From Citricoccus sp. K5 (GTDB taxonomy: Bacteria > Actinomycetota > Actinomycetes > Actinomycetales > Micrococcaceae), in the NCBI RefSeq assembly GCF_902506195.1, contig NZ_LR732817.1:699147-763146 (forward strand): DNA of 64,000 bases. Reading direction: 5' to 3'. A model generated the notes under the pieces. That model worked only from the letters and a program-made list of their open reading frames with translations. It was not told the origin of the DNA and ran no database searches. Position numbers and translations under genes: made by a program. Shown here one piece after another: positions 5,410 to 54,538 of this stretch (its first letter is position 1; each line of letters begins with the position of its first letter).

Positions 5410-6930
5410 GTGACCACGTCCTCCATGCCCACCGAGATGACACCGCTGCGCCGGTGGTTGCTGCTGGTCGCCGTCAGCGCGGGGGTGCTGCTGATCACCC
5501 TCGACAACACGATCCTCTACACCGCGCTGCCGACCCTGACGGCGGAGCTCGGGGCGACGGCCTCGGAGTCGCTGTGGATCATCAACGCCTATCCGCTCGT
5601 GATGTGCGGCCTGCTGCTGGGGGCGGGAACGCTGGGGGACCGGTATGGCCATCGGCGGCTCTTCCTCATCGGCCTGGTGCTGTTCGGGGCCGCGTCCCTC
5701 GTGGCGGCCTTCGCGCCAGGCGTCACCATCCTGATCGCCTCACGGGCCCTGTTGGCCGTGGGCGCCGCGTGCATGATGCCGGCCACCCTGGCCCTGATCC
5801 GCATCGGGTTCAACGATGTCCGCCAGCGCAATGTCGCCATCGGCGTCTGGGGGAGCATCTCCGTGCTCGGGGCGGCACTGGGTCCGATCGTCGGCGGCCT
5901 GCTGCTGGAGCACTTCTGGTGGGGCTCCGTGTTCCTGATCAACGTCCCCGTCGTCCTGGGTGCCCTGGTCCTGACTCCCTGGGTGGCGCCGCGGGCACGC
6001 CCGGACCGGTCCAAGTCCTGGGACGCGCTGTCCTCCCTGTACGCCATGGTCGCCCTCACGGGAGCCGTCTTCGCGATCAAGGAGGCCACCGGCCCGGATC
6101 TCTCGGGGCCAGTGCTGGCGGTCACCGCCGCCTGCGCCGTGGCCGGGGCCTGGCTGTTCGTCCGGCGCCAACGCAAGCTGGAGGATCCGGTCCTCGACTT
6201 CGCCGTCTTCCGCAACCGGGCCTTCTCCGCCGGGTTCCTGGCGGCGGCCTGCTCGATGTTCGTGATCGGGGGTGTGCAGCTGGTCACCACGCAGCGCTTC
6301 CAGCTGGTCGAGGGCTACACGCCGCTCCAATCCGGGCTCCTGGTCGCCGCACTCGCCGCAGGGTCTCTTCTCACCTCCCTCGCCGGAGGAGCCACGCTGC
6401 ACGTGCTCGGACTGCGCACGCTCATCACCGGTGGCTTCATCCTCGGCACGCTCGGCATGACCCTGGCGGCGCTCGGCGCTACCACGCACGTGGGTCTGCT
6501 GGTCACCGGCCTGGTGCTGACCGGTGCCGGCATGGGCGCGGCCATGTCCGTGGCGTCCACGGCCATCATCGGCAACGTCCCGGCACGGCAGGCCGGCATG
6601 GCCTCCTCCGTGGAGGAGGTGTCCTACGAGTTCGGCAACCTGCTGGCCGTCGCGATCCTCGGCAGCCTCGCCACCCTCGTCTACACCCTGACCGTCCAGC
6701 TGCCGTCAGGCGCTCCGGCGGGAGCGGCGGACAGCATGTCCCAGGCCGTGACGGTGGCCCACGGTGACCCGGCCGTGCTGGCCGCCGCAGGCGCCGCGTA
6801 TGACACGGCGTTCGTGACCGTGCTCGCCATCATCACCGCCGTCGTCGCGGTGTGTGCCGTAGCCACCGGGTGGCTCCTGCGCCACTACGGCCCCGGAACC
6901 CGGGCCAGCGCCTACGAGAGCAATCACTAG
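5410..6930 (+). CDS. MFS multidrug transporter, DHA2 (14-TM, QacA/EmrB/SmvA) type
   Basis: A 506-residue integral membrane exporter. Helix 1 carries LDNTILYTALPTLTAEL, the DHA2 motif D1. The helix 2-3 loop has GDRYGHRR (motif A), and helix 5 has the antiporter-type LGAALGPIVGGLLL (motif C). About 14 hydrophobic segments can be counted, which fits proton-driven efflux of cationic drugs, antiseptics or dyes. GTG 5410 directly follows a TAGAGT box by six bases, so the message is probably leaderless. The gene converges on an ABC-F resistance gene with only 38 nt between them. The substrate is not deducible. Confidence 0.88.
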   Translation: MTTSSMPTEMTPLRRWLLLVAVSAGVLLITLDNTILYTALPTLTAELGATASESLWIINAYPLVMCGLLLGAGTLGDRYGHRRLFLIGLVLFGAASLVAAFAPGVTILIASRALLAVGAACMMPATLALIRIGFNDVRQRNVAIGVWGSISVLGAALGPIVGGLLLEHFWWGSVFLINVPVVLGALVLTPWVAPRARPDRSKSWDALSSLYAMVALTGAVFAIKEATGPDLSGPVLAVTAACAVAGAWLFVRRQRKLEDPVLDFAVFRNRAFSAGFLAAACSMFVIGGVQLVTTQRFQLVEGYTPLQSGLLVAALAAGSLLTSLAGGATLHVLGLRTLITGGFILGTLGMTLAALGATTHVGLLVTGLVLTGAGMGAAMSVASTAIIGNVPARQAGMASSVEEVSYEFGNLLAVAILGSLATLVYTLTVQLPSGAPAGAADSMSQAVTVAHGDPAVLAAAGAAYDTAFVTVLAIITAVVAVCAVATGWLLRHYGPGTRASAYESNH

Positions 6931-6968: not shown

Positions 6969-8654
6969 TCACCCGCCGTCGGGTCCCTCCAACTCCAGTC
7001 GGGGCCAGGCGGCCAGGTCGCCCAGCAGCTGCCGGTCGTGCGTCGCGACGACGACGGCCGCCCGGGTCACCAGCAGCGCCTCGGTGAGGGCGTCCACCAC
7101 CGGTGCGGACAGATGGTTGCTGGGCTCGTCCAGCAACAGCAGATCCGGCCGCTCCGCCAGCCGCAGGGCCAGGTGCAGCCGGCTCCGCTGCCCGGCTGAC
7201 AGGGCACCGACCGGGGCGCGCCGTGCCTCCGCGTCCAGCAGCCCGGTGGCACCCAGCGGCACCAGGTCCTCCTCAGAGTGGGTGCCGGCCGCGAGCAGCC
7301 GGTGCGCGTGGTCCCGGTACAGCTCGTGGGCGAGCATCCGCGCCGGCCAGACAGGGGGCTCCTGGCCGACCAGCGCGACCCGGGCCTCAGAGGATTGCCG
7401 CACCTCGCCGGCATCCGGTGCGAGCCCGCCGGCCAGCACCTCGAGCAGAGTGGATTTGCCCGCCCCGTTCGGCCCGGTCACGAGCAGGCGCTCGCCTCCG
7501 GCCAGCCGCAGGTCCACCGGCCGCCGCAGCCGGCCGGCCACGGTCACCCCGTTACAGTGCACCAACGGCTGTCCGGCCCGCACCGCCAGGTCCGGGAAGG
7601 CCAGCTGCGCCGGTGGTTCCGGCACGGAGATGCGGTGTGCCTCCAGGTCTGCCTGGCGCCGCTTCACGGCCTGCACGACGCCGGGCGCCCGGCTCTGGCG
7701 TTGGTGCTTGCCATGGCCCTTGTCCGGCCGCCACGCGGATTCCAGCCGGTCCCGCGCCGCGTCGGCGGCCTCGGCCAGGCGGTGATGCTCGGCCCGTTGG
7801 GCCTCATGGGCCTGCACCCAGCGTTCACGGGCGGCCGTCCGGCCCGACATCCAGCCGTCATAGCCGCCGGCATAGAGGGTGGGCCGTCCGTCCACGCTGG
7901 GGTCCAGATCGAGGAACTCCTCCGCCACATCCCGCAACAAAGTCCGGTCGTGGGAGACCAGAGCCAGTCCGCCGGGATGCTCGCGGAGGCTCGCGGTCAG
8001 GAAGTCCAGGCTGCCCGCGTCGAGGTGATTGGTCGGCTCGTCCAGCAGCAGCATGTCGTACCGCGCACCGAGCACGCAGGCCAACCGGACCCGGTACCGC
8101 TGGCCCACGGACAACTCTGCGAGCAGGCGGGACCTGTCCGTCACGGCGTCCAGCGCCGCCAATGCCACGTCCACCCGGCGTTCGGCGTCCCAGGCGTCGA
8201 GGACGGTGGCTGTCTCCAGGGCGGCCGCATAGTCATCGTCCGCTCCGGTCGAGCCCCGTGCCAGGGCCTCCGCCGCAGCGTCCAGGGCCGTCAGAGCCCG
8301 CTGTGAGGCCCCGATCGCCTCGCCCACGAGCGAGCCCACGGTCTGGCCGGGGCCGGCGTCGAGGGTCTGCTCGGCCACGCCGAGCGTGCCCACCCGGGTG
8401 ACCGAGCCGGCGTCGGGCCTGAGGGTTCCGGCGAGGGCGTGTAGCAGGGTGCTCTTGCCGCGGCCGTTCTCGCCGACGATGGCGAGGCGGGAACGGACGG
8501 AGACGGTGACGCTGGCGTCACGGAGGATCTCCCGGCCGCCGCGCACCACGCAGAGGCCGTCCGCACGCAGATGAGCGGCCGCGCCCGCGGGAAGCGCCGT
8601 GTCCGTGCGGTGGTCGGCGGGGGAGGAGGGAGGTTCAGGGAAACGTGGGTTCAC
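6969..8654 (-). CDS. ABC-F family ATP-binding protein (probable antibiotic resistance ribosome-protection factor)
   Basis: A 561-residue soluble protein with two ATP-binding cassettes and no membrane segment. Walker A motifs are GENGRGKST and GPNGAGKST, signatures are LSVGQ and LSAGQ, and Walker B motifs are [11 protein letters not shown] and [11 protein letters not shown]. Between the cassettes is a charged helical linker, the interdomain arm that reaches the peptidyl-transferase region in resistance-type ABC-F proteins. The start is GTG 8654, with no good ribosome binding site. The 160-nt leader holds a small upstream ORF and an intrinsic terminator, listed separately. This layout is typical of drug-inducible ABC-F genes (macrolide, lincosamide, streptogramin or pleuromutilin types), so a resistance role is favoured over a housekeeping one. 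The drug class cannot be stated. Confidence 0.88.
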
Positions 8655-8691
8655 GGTAGTGCTTTCGACTCGTCAGGGAGCCGGGCACGCC

Positions 8692-8725
8692 AAAAGACCG
8701 CCCGGCGGGAACCGGGACGGCGGTC
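8692..8725 (-). terminator. Attenuator terminator in ABC-F leader
   Basis: On the minus strand, GACCG and an inner CCGGG/CCCGG stem form a GC-rich hairpin (8725-8696) followed directly by TTTT (8695-8692). It lies between the upstream ORF and the ABC-F start, 37 nt before GTG 8654, so it would cut off the gene unless read through. Confidence 0.65.
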
Positions 8726-8759
8726 AGGGTGGATCAGTCGATCGTGGGGTGTCTCACCG

Positions 8760-8776
8760 GGCCGCCGTCAGCGGCC
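8760..8776 (-). promoter_or_regulatory. Hairpin over the leader-peptide stop codon
   Basis: GGCCGC and GCGGCC form a perfect 6-bp stem with a 5-nt loop containing the TGA of the leader ORF. A ribosome stalled on the last codons would melt it, which could change pairing of the downstream terminator. Confidence 0.45.
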
Positions 8777-8815
8777 GGGACGTATCCTGATCATCGCGAT
8801 GCTGGTGTGAACCAT
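8768..8815 (-). CDS. 15-codon leader peptide of ABC-F gene
   Basis: ATG 8815 to TGA 8768 encodes MVHTSIAMIRIRPGR. A TAGAAT -10 box ends 7 nt upstream of the ATG, so the peptide would start at or next to the 5' end of the transcript. It is followed by a stop-codon hairpin and then an intrinsic terminator before the ABC-F gene. Known ABC-F and erm genes use such peptides to sense stalled ribosomes. No homologue is claimed; the call rests on position and architecture. Confidence 0.55.
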   Translation of the reverse strand: MVHTSIAMIRIRPGR

Positions 8816-8822
8816 GCAGACC

Positions 8823-8828
8823 ATTCTA
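8823..8828 (-). promoter_or_regulatory. -10 box of ABC-F leader transcript
   Basis: TAGAAT followed by GG and, after 7 nt, the leader-peptide ATG 8815. No good -35 box is seen at 17 bp, which would suit an activator-dependent promoter. Confidence 0.5.
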
Positions 8829-8903
8829 ATCAGGTCTCCGCCGTTCTGGTCCGTCTCGTCTGTGCCCGTCCGTGGTGGACCGATGCCCTCCGTTGGTCTG
8901 GAC

Positions 8904-8915: not shown

Positions 8916-10139
8916 ATGACGAGCACGCCCGGAGGGCCACCCGACCCCTCCGGACCGGCCGGCCGGCGGACCCGCACCGCACTGGTGTCCGTGCTCGCCG
9001 TCGTGCTGATCGGTCTGAACCTGCGGGCCGGGATCGCCTCGGCCGGGCCGTTGTTCGAGGACCTGCAGAACCTGCTCGGCTATGGGCCGCTCACCGCCTC
9101 CCTGTTGCCGACCATCCCGGTGCTGTGCTTCGCGGTGGCTGGCGCGGGCACCTCCTGGCTGGTGCGCCGGTGCGGGCTGGAACCGGCGATCGCGCTGGCC
9201 CTGGCGCTGCTCACTGGCGGGCTGGCACTGCGTGTCTTCGAGTCCACCGCCCTGCTGCTGGTCGGCACTGTCATAGGCATGTGCGGCCTGGCCGTCTGCA
9301 ACGTGGCGATGCCCACCTACATCCGCCAGCACCACGGGGCGAGGGCCGCCACGATGACGGGGATGTACACGGTCTCCATGACGATCGGAGCCACCACGGC
9401 AGCAGCCCTCGCCGTCCCCGTGGCCCGCGGGCTGGGTTCGCCCACCGCAGGTCTGGCCGCCTGGGCGGTCCCGGCCGCCGTCGCGCTCGCGGTGTTCGTC
9501 CCACTTGCGGTGCGCAGCCGGCTGTCCGGGGACTGGGCCGCACGCCGGGGCGTGCCCTACGTCTCGCCGTGGGCGCTGCTGAGGACACGCAAGGGCCAGC
9601 TGTTCACAGCGCTGTTCGCCGCCCAGGCGTTCCTGGCTTACGGAGTCCTCGGTTGGTACCCGCACATCCTCATCTCCCGGGGACTCGATGCCACCACGGC
9701 CGGGCTGATGCTGGGGCTGATGCAGTTGGTCGGCATCCCCACGATGATGGTGCTGCTGACGCTCGCCGGCCGTCCCTGGCTGCTGCGCACGGCGTTCATG
9801 ATCACCTGCGGCGCCTCCTTGGCCGGTTACGTGGTCCTGCTGCTGGCCCCGGTGGACTGGGTCATCGGCACTTCCATCCTCATGGGGCTCGGCTTCTGCG
9901 TGTTCCCGCTGTTGATGCTCCTGATCAGCCGCAGCGGGGACACCGCGTCCGAGACCACGGCACTGTCCACGCTCGCCCAGTCACTGGGGTACCTGGGCGC
10001 CGCCCTCGGCCCCTTCGGACTGGGGCTGATGAACGGGCTGCTGGGGAACTGGACCGCCGCCATCGTGGTGGTGATGGCCGTCTCCGCCCTCCAGCTCGTC
10101 CTGAGCCATCGGGTCAGTTCCCCCGCGGCCCGGTTCTGA
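8916..10139 (+). CDS. MFS transporter, CynX/NimT family
   Basis: A 407-residue membrane protein with about 12 hydrophobic helices. The opening segment IGLNLRAGIASAGPLFEDLQ, followed by LGYGPLTASLLPTIPVLCFA, is characteristic of the CynX/NimT branch of the major facilitators. Members have been linked to cyanate and 2-nitroimidazole transport, and most are of unknown substrate. No cyanase or related gene is near, so no substrate is proposed. ATG 8916 follows TAGTCT by six bases. The gene is divergent from the ABC-F leader, and the two transcripts start about 100 bp apart. Confidence 0.85.
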   Translation: MTSTPGGPPDPSGPAGRRTRTALVSVLAVVLIGLNLRAGIASAGPLFEDLQNLLGYGPLTASLLPTIPVLCFAVAGAGTSWLVRRCGLEPAIALALALLTGGLALRVFESTALLLVGTVIGMCGLAVCNVAMPTYIRQHHGARAATMTGMYTVSMTIGATTAAALAVPVARGLGSPTAGLAAWAVPAAVALAVFVPLAVRSRLSGDWAARRGVPYVSPWALLRTRKGQLFTALFAAQAFLAYGVLGWYPHILISRGLDATTAGLMLGLMQLVGIPTMMVLLTLAGRPWLLRTAFMITCGASLAGYVVLLLAPVDWVIGTSILMGLGFCVFPLLMLLISRSGDTASETTALSTLAQSLGYLGAALGPFGLGLMNGLLGNWTAAIVVVMAVSALQLVLSHRVSSPAARF

Positions 10140-54342: not shown

Positions 54343-54538
54343 GGTCCGGGAGGGTCACCCGATGTGACCGTCCCTGCTGCATACCAGTCAGCACCCCCAT
54401 CAAGCCCGTCACGTCCATCCATTCGCGGTCCTCGACAGTGGCTTCCGGAACCTCACGACCATCGTGTCCGAGCGTCCGGAGGCTTCGATCGAAGACCGGG
54501 TGGTGACGCGGCGGGCCGTGAAGAAAGGACACCCACCC

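Follow-up and report, generated by a model that had tools for sequence, protein, structure and literature searches.

A leaderless, probably macrolide-sensing attenuator ahead of an actinobacterial ABC-F gene looks like one of a conserved family

What switches on an ABC-F gene that stands behind its own short reading frame and terminator-like hairpin? The gene lies in a 64,000-nucleotide stretch of DNA from Citricoccus sp. K5 (the window, in all that follows), where an initial annotation had read, on the minus strand, a TAGAAT box, a 15-codon ORF starting 7 nt behind it, a hairpin around the stop codon of that ORF, a second hairpin running into TTTT, and the ABC-F start. Every one of these parts is borne out by the sequence (Table 1), including the 7-nt distance from TAGAAT to the ATG at 8815; a 38-base spacer separates the stop-codon hairpin from the terminator-like one. 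A terminator scan picks up the site (2 sites in 4 kb, with 0.6 expected), which consists of a GC hairpin and a U tract (CTTTTGGC). At gathering scores, Rfam offers no family for the leader element; what it recognizes in the window are two tRNAs and an Actino-pnp cis-regulatory RNA (54424–54500; 51.2 bits, gathering score 47.7). The best explanation of the locus, and one we consider likely, is a leaderless, ribosome-mediated attenuator that senses macrolides. It looks like one member of a conserved family of leaderless attenuators of Actinomycetota, whose signal is probably a macrolide.

Table 1. Parts of the leader and the gene behind it, in window coordinates
Feature	Position	Strand	Basis
-10 promoter element TAGAAT	8823–8828	minus	Sequence; TANNNT in 77/79 orthologs
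Leader ORF MVHTSIAMIRIRPGR, predicted leaderless, 15 codons plus TGA	8768–8815	minus	Sequence; family statistics
Codons R10-I11-R12 (AGG ATA CGT), where a macrolide is predicted to arrest the ribosome (P site, I11; A site, R12)	8780–8788	minus	Conserved place; known +X+ arrest
Segment 1:2 hairpin GGCCGC-TGACG-GCGGCC, 6 bp, stop codon in loop	8760–8776	minus	Sequence
Segment 2, GACGGCGG	8762–8769	minus	Perfect 8-bp complement of segment 3
Segment 3, CCGCCGTC, 5' arm of terminator and partner of segment 2	8716–8723	minus	RNAalifold consensus
Segment 3:4 terminator-like hairpin GCCG(U)CCCGG-uucccg-CCGGGCGGU	8697–8721	minus	97.5% of cells paired, 75 leaders
TTTT (within CTTTTGG), 3' of the 3:4 hairpin	8692–8695	minus	Present in window
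Segment 4, GCCGGGC, can pair with segment 5 instead	8700–8706	minus	7-bp complement; RNAalifold
Segment 5, GCCCGGC	8680–8686	minus	Kept in ABC-F leaders; present in several erm leaders
Small hairpin GGCTC/GAGTC just 5' of the gene start region	8667–8682	minus	95.7% of cells paired
ABC-F gene, 561 aa, GTG start at 8654	6969–8654	minus	Nearest NCBIfam model; predicted fold

The protein is 93% identical to the ABC-F protein of C. zhacaiensis. Its best NCBIfam model is that of TlrC/CarA/OleB/SrmB (ABCF_producer, NF000171), at 305.9 bits with a cut-off of 800, and against the general ribosomal-protection model (NF000355) it scores 286.2 bits, below the cut-off of 380. To judge by these scores it is a relative of both models and a certified member of neither. 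The predicted structure (mean pLDDT 88.2) has an ABC-F fold that comprises two ATPase domains and, at about residues 264–339, a helical linker whose tip scores lower; searched against the PDB, it matches EttA, PoxtA, VmlR2, and other ABC-F proteins and picks out no single drug class. On either side of the gene lie a divergent CynX/NimT-like MFS gene (8916–10139) and a convergent DHA2-type efflux MFS gene (5410–6930), neither of which reaches the curated cut-off of its best model.

Is the leaderless arrangement kept among related genes? From a genome search we retained the best 80 of 222 relatives, 79 of them with upstream DNA (L109 is the exception), and scanned for a unit consisting of TANNNT, 5–9 nt, and a 7–26-codon ORF ending in [KR]-X-[KRW] plus one to four residues. 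Within this set of the best 80 of 222, the unit is present in 77 of the 79 orthologs, and its carriers span 12 named families. Dinucleotide shuffles contain it in 19 of 3950 cases, reverse complements in 0/79, and stretches 1.85–2.3 kb upstream in 0/78; it is likewise absent from the distant ABC-F homologs L010–L030 (0/20 with upstream DNA). The scan missed two orthologs: L097, which has CACCAT-N7-ATG and a peptide ending in AKPWSPR, and L099, whose peptide ends in MRPWSRR and whose start codon is ambiguous. The RNA model built from the leaders matches both. Among the 77 relatives, the start codon follows the -10 element by 7 nt in 64, 6 nt in 12, and 8 nt in one, and C stands directly before it in 97% of those with the 7-nt spacing. 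The suggestion that the leader ORF is itself leaderless gains support from this 6- to 8-nt geometry and the conserved C. Lack of conservation in relatives had been named as a finding that would count against regulation; in fact the ORF is conserved, as are its leaderless geometry and the stems of the hairpins.

At the edge of the family the picture changes. Two orthologs, L008 and L009 (56 and 53% identity), have different leaderless ORFs (QTLLYL and MAMQLLLFL) and other terminator-like hairpins, one of them followed by TTTTTT; the sensor seems, from these sequences, to have been exchanged. At E ≤ 0.01 the RNA model matches 0/23 of the homologs L008–L030. In L007 and L086, the ORF is present, yet the model gives no match at E ≤ 1.

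We next consider the leader peptide. In the window it holds R-I-R, an Arg/Lys-X-Arg/Lys (+X+) motif near the end of the ORF. Among the 77 relatives, the distance from [K/R]-X-[R/W] to the stop is exactly three codons in 76 and two codons in L078. The leader ORFs range from 11 to 20 codons and differ in their N termini; the distance from motif to stop is fixed regardless of length. The first motif residue is Lys in 59 and Arg in 17; at the third, 52 of the 77 have Arg and 24 have Trp, so that the +X+ form proper holds only in part across the family. The peptides fall into MARGIWSQKVRSAR and its kin, SMRLRxxR types, KLW/KPW types, and the IRIRPGR of the window. On a protein tree that leaves out L002, L004, L006, and L109, MARGIWSQKVRSAR and its kin make up 36 of the 84 proteins and lie on one side of a branch. 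Twenty-six identical MARGIWSQKVRSAR ORFs occur in 10 DNA versions whose differences are purely synonymous (codons 4, 10, 11, and 12) and include serine TCC against AGC; there has therefore been selection on the peptide. The Arg/Trp state of the third residue requires a minimum of six changes on this quick tree, of which well-supported branches alone force just two or three. The predicted stall codons of the window, AGG ATA CGT, look unusual in so GC-rich a genome. Five peptide strings from relatives had no match in the open-access papers searched.

What might such a motif do? In the ErmDL leader (MTHSMRLR), according to the available text of PMC8298421, arrest occurs when Leu7 occupies the P site and Arg8 the A site. 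The same text reports that under erythromycin Ser4 and Met5 are important and the +X+ residues have little effect, and that with telithromycin a Trp at the A-site place relieved stalling. We had expected Trp to serve as well as Arg in the A site, an expectation that PMC8298421, as far as its text is available, contradicts in part. In the tlrB leader of Bacillus subtilis, tylosin is reported to stall ribosomes at RYR (PMC6851288, available text). By analogy with these systems, the conserved +X(R/W) near the ORF end points to macrolide arrest of the ErmDL or TlrB type. The initial annotation had likened the locus to vmlR; its general logic of ribosome-mediated attenuation is supported, and the likeness stops at the predicted place of arrest, since the motif here lies near the ORF end, unlike in vmlR and the Streptomyces ARE5 genes, where the drugs act at the start codon or just after it.

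Can the position of a ribosome on the leader choose between RNA structures? Pairing was computed for 75 leaders, those of the window and 74 relatives. Rows from the same organisms as other rows (L001, L002, L004, and L006), duplicate segments (L035 and L105), leaders with no segment 5 by pattern (L007 and L046) or of odd length (L071 and L086), those with no upstream ORF (uORF) by the scan (L097 and L099), and L109, with no upstream DNA, were left out; the RNA model later matched four of them (L046, L071, L097, and L099). Segments 2 and 3 can form a helix of at least 7 bp in 56/75 leaders (75%) versus 3.5% of shuffles, and segments 4 and 5 one of at least 6 bp in 70/75 versus 6% of shuffles. 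The RNAalifold consensus consists of 2:3 plus 4:5. In these computed structures, terminator and antiterminator are mutually exclusive, because 2:3 and 3:4 share segment 3. The CGGCG of segment 2 is invariant across the leader alignment, and the 1:2 helix is the least conserved, with 81.3% of cells paired in a counted register that differs from the window's own.

Counted from the P-site codon's first base, toeprints place the ribosome edge 15–16 nt away (PMC6851288, available text). A stall with I11 in the P site would by this geometry leave the RNA free from about 8769, the G of TGA, give or take one base, and the fixed motif-to-stop distance would thus bring its edge, to within one base, to where segment 2 begins. 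We simulated such edges by removing the RNA under the ribosome and computing the pairing of the nascent RNA to the end of segment 4. With the edge at the stall, the probability of 2:3 exceeds 0.5 in 69/75 leaders; with the ribosome at the stop codon, that of 3:4 exceeds 0.5 in 73/75. Both conditions, hence a switch from antiterminator to terminator, hold in 67/75. The values for the window are 0.99 for 2:3 at the stall edge and 0.96 for 3:4 at the stop edge, and on average the two curves cross 2–3 bases past the stall edge. Eight of the 75 leaders, including that of the sister species L031, show no switch in this simulation.

The ribosome-free RNA of the window favors the antiterminator 2:3 (probability 0.82 at edge -15, and also in the minimum-energy fold), which implies that the OFF state needs either translation of the leader or folding kinetics. 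The annotation had proposed folding the leader with and without a ribosome: the ribosome edges do switch the structure in 67/75 leaders, while the two hairpins it described are missing from the ribosome-free minimum-energy fold. With the ribosome at the stop of a full-length RNA, 4:5 outcompetes 3:4 in the mean of the 75 leaders (0.70 vs. 0.21); in the window the probability of 4:5 is low over all edges (0.001–0.35). Taken whole, the leader has an unremarkable folding energy (z -1.48; 19/200 shuffles fold at least as well). Compensatory changes affect one 3:4 pair (UA, three sequences), one 1:2 pair (one sequence), and one 4:5 pair (AU, two sequences). Covariation of the OFF structure is reached by 4/500 column shuffles, that of the ON structure by 500/500. 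The slight covariation follows from paired bases that hardly vary, and a weak ON signal is expected—though this is no proof—where one segment has to serve two pairing partners. The choice of drug is not accounted for by folding alone.

How would these parts work together? The parts themselves, their conservation, their complementarities, the fixed motif-to-stop distance, and the sharing with erm leaders described below are established here. We propose that the transcript begins on the leader start codon or no more than one base away, a placement that would let a ribosome load at the extreme 5' end as the RNA emerges. Without drug, the ribosome would translate to the stop and cover segment 2; segment 3 would then pair with segment 4 and the gene would stay off, in the window species most likely by termination of transcription at TTTT. 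If a macrolide occupied the exit tunnel, translation would arrest at R10-I11-R12 with the leading edge at the stop codon, and segment 2, left free, would pair with segment 3 and block the 3:4 hairpin.

Many relatives seem to carry a second control at the promoter. A GAAAWY box (at most one mismatch) occurs at the WblC/WhiB7 place in 36/77 relatives versus 1.4% of single-base shuffles, 31–34 bases before the -10 element (loci L031–L110). The WblC motif is reported to lie 3 nt upstream of the -35, with start sites 7–8 bp after TANNNT (PMC7157823, available text). To judge by the box, many relatives would be doubly gated, by WblC at the promoter and by the leader during elongation. The window promoter (row L001 of this comparison) has no good box (the best GAAAWY at the expected place agrees in three of six bases), and its gene seems, from the promoter sequence, to rely on the leader without a WblC gate; in L003, a relative of the window, five of six bases agree at one base off the common place. 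If true, lineages with a WblC/WhiB7-like promoter would need both a general stress and a macrolide-specific signal.

The step that the switch controls can be read in two ways. The strong intrinsic terminator of the initial annotation is there in the window as a hairpin with TTTT, and the description may be valid, as far as the leaders read, for the window species and a few others: TTTT follows 3:4 in just 4/75 leaders, window included, and two sister Citricoccus leaders read CTCGTGGC and CCTTTGAC at that place. Our judgement leans, with some reserve, toward transcription termination in the window species. A distinctly less probable alternative keeps the same sensor and gives it a translational output, with 3:4 freeing segment 5 to close the ribosome-binding region, 4:5 opening that region, and termination playing a minor part. 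The scarcity of TTTT would suit it, as would the course of segment 5 into GGCTCC, the GCGGAGC that stands just before the start in many relatives (several erm leaders included), and the conservation of both 4:5 and the small start-proximal hairpin. Against it, accessibility of the Shine-Dalgarno-like site is equal between the two states (means 0.28 and 0.32, by a crude site rule), being higher by more than 0.2 in the ON state in 5/75 leaders and lower in 6/75; there is a mild excess of T after segment 4 (3.05 of 8 bases, compared with 1.99 at the spacer's T content); and no GGAG precedes the ABC-F start of the window. Translational control is thus left open above all for the relatives with GCGGAGC before the start.

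The nature of the signal raises further alternatives. The leader could sense general translation stress or a shortage of Arg or Trp tRNA, like the wblC/whiB7 leaders, and not macrolides in particular. Its motif residues are Arg, Lys, and Trp, the promoters of 36/77 relatives carry the WblC-like box, and wblC is reported to answer many ribosome drugs as well as amino acid starvation (PMC12421871, available text); Trp at the A-site place in 24/77 leaders, unlike what ErmDL would lead one to expect, also tells against the macrolide reading. We nevertheless think a stress sensor unlikely: with Lys in 59 and Arg in 17 leaders at the first place, no single tRNA can explain the motif, the same type of leader stands ahead of erm genes, known for macrolide-lincosamide-streptogramin B resistance, and +X+ is a known macrolide arrest motif (PMC8298421, PMC6851288, available texts). 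Still less probable is a sensor of lincosamides, streptogramin A, or pleuromutilins of the tiaA, are5sc, and vmlR kind, on which the ribosome would stall at the start codon. Such control is known for actinobacterial ARE5 ABC-F genes (PMC12421871, PMC8546547, available texts), and in vmlR and the Streptomyces ARE5 genes the drugs reportedly act at or just after the start codon. Those uORFs, as far as they are described, are short (MLV, MIN, and MVGDDDISG) and stall at the start, whereas the constraint here lies near the stop codon at a fixed distance, and the protein is nearest to the macrolide-type TlrC/CarA/OleB/SrmB model, though far below its cut-off. That there is no regulation at all, and a leaderless promoter merely happens to precede a chance hairpin, we regard as scarcely credible; the ordinary folding energy of the entire leader would fit, and conservation in 12 named families, controls near zero, and a peptide class that varies only synonymously would not.

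How far does the element reach beyond this gene? We searched 396 genomes of the phylum with the RNA model of the ABC-F leaders (eight candidates scored per listed genome) and found matches in at least two genomes. Among the matches listed, the sole other one is an erm leader in another class (L112, minus strand, 1501–1629; E 1.1e-9), which encodes MCASIRKRPCL and has the same segments as the ABC-F leaders. The gene behind it is an Erm 23S rRNA methyltransferase (NF000499, 227.4 bits, above the cut-off of 212). Searching with this Erm protein gave matches at E ≤ 1e-30 in 27/296 class genomes. At close erm loci a leaderless +X+ ORF occurs in 14/17, as against 10/1700 single-base shuffles; at distant erm loci it occurs in 1/10. 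The endings are RIRRS, RMRRF, RLRTA, RPRRA, RDRRA, RPRTA, and similar, mostly with the motif two codons from the stop. The ABC-F-leader model itself matches 6/17 close erm loci at E ≤ 0.01, each at the leader, and 0/10 of the distant ones. At one erm locus, L121, the leader seems to be without the first segments; its leaderless start runs toward the erm start and there is no +X+.

A strict pattern finds the element in 1/396 phylum genomes and 4/394 class genomes, and reversed-pattern controls give none among the matches listed. The element is patchy, and the strict pattern misses diverged members. In three further class genomes found by the pattern, the element stands ahead of ABC-F genes with +X+ leaders. 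Nineteen plasmid records hold an ortholog; the two examined, neither of them in the model, have the leaders MYRGIASMKLRSAR (Micrococcus plasmid pLMV7, 107 bits) and MARGIWSQKVRSAR (a Streptomyces plasmid, 112 bits). pLMV7 of Micrococcus sp. V7 (L148) is a linear plasmid with an IS5-family transposase near the ABC-F gene, which overlaps the following MFS transporter gene by 4 bases. We see about as much for as against the broader proposal that a single leaderless module, with [K/R]-X-[R/W] fixed two to three codons before an antiterminator-opening stop, has spread in Actinomycetota on chromosomes and plasmids and been joined to at least two unrelated genes, ABC-F and erm.

How does the element compare with known systems? 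Ribosome-mediated attenuation of ABC-F genes is known from vgaA, vmlR, msrD, lmrC, and tiaA, as far as the available reports describe them, and +X+ leaders of macrolide resistance genes are likewise known already (PMC8298421, PMC6851288, available texts). Our search of open-access papers turned up no leaderless +X+ leader described for an ABC-F or erm gene of Actinomycetota. A survey of erm uORFs reports no universal conservation pattern across families (PMC11264731, available text); the fixed motif-to-stop spacing is a possible pattern to seek in Actinomycetota. If our reading is true, it gives a rule, readable from sequence, for which actinobacterial resistance genes macrolides switch on, and natural leaders with K-P-W or K-L-W would represent a kind of arrest not predicted by the ErmDL work. 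The natural variants RLR, RIR, RPR, RMR, KVR, KLR, KPW, and KLW are material for testing how macrolides choose among peptide bonds.

The closest likeness is to ErmDL, the ermD leader, which arrests at Arg6-Leu7-Arg8 under macrolides or ketolides much as Arg-X-Arg is predicted to do here, and whose S-M-R-L-R recurs letter for letter in the leaders of several relatives; its drug-dependent stalling controls a macrolide resistance gene, as we predict for this element (PMC8298421). In this comparison, made at the level of the peptide, ErmDL differs in controlling an erm gene and in not being described as leaderless in the available text of PMC8298421, and Trp is common at the A-site place in the leaders studied here. 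The yxjB/tlrB leader of B. subtilis also has a C-terminal +X+ and combines transcription with translation attenuation; there the motif is formed by the last three residues, pausing depends on NusG, and the available text of PMC6851288 does not describe the leader as leaderless. The Streptomyces ABC-F genes lmrC, tiaA, and are5sc are under ribosome-mediated attenuation (PMC8546547, PMC12421871, available texts), and in lmrC terminator formation requires leader translation (PMC8546547). These are ARE5 genes for lincosamide, streptogramin A, and pleuromutilin (PMC8546547, PMC12421871), and tiaA and are5sc combine start-codon stalling with ribosome-binding sites before the uORF (PMC12421871). The msrD leader (MYLIFM) is a further case of macrolide-induced transcription attenuation of an ABC-F gene, yet it is streptococcal, has another peptide, and stalls at the stop codon through hampered release (PMC10314930, available text). 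If true, our reading means that drug-sensing leaders also occur on leaderless messages, which initiate differently from Shine-Dalgarno-led ones. Leaderless polycysteine short ORFs of mycobacteria reportedly sense cysteine (work of Canestrari, 2020). They are likewise leaderless sensors in an actinobacterium, and differ from the element described here in that cysteine is what they sense.
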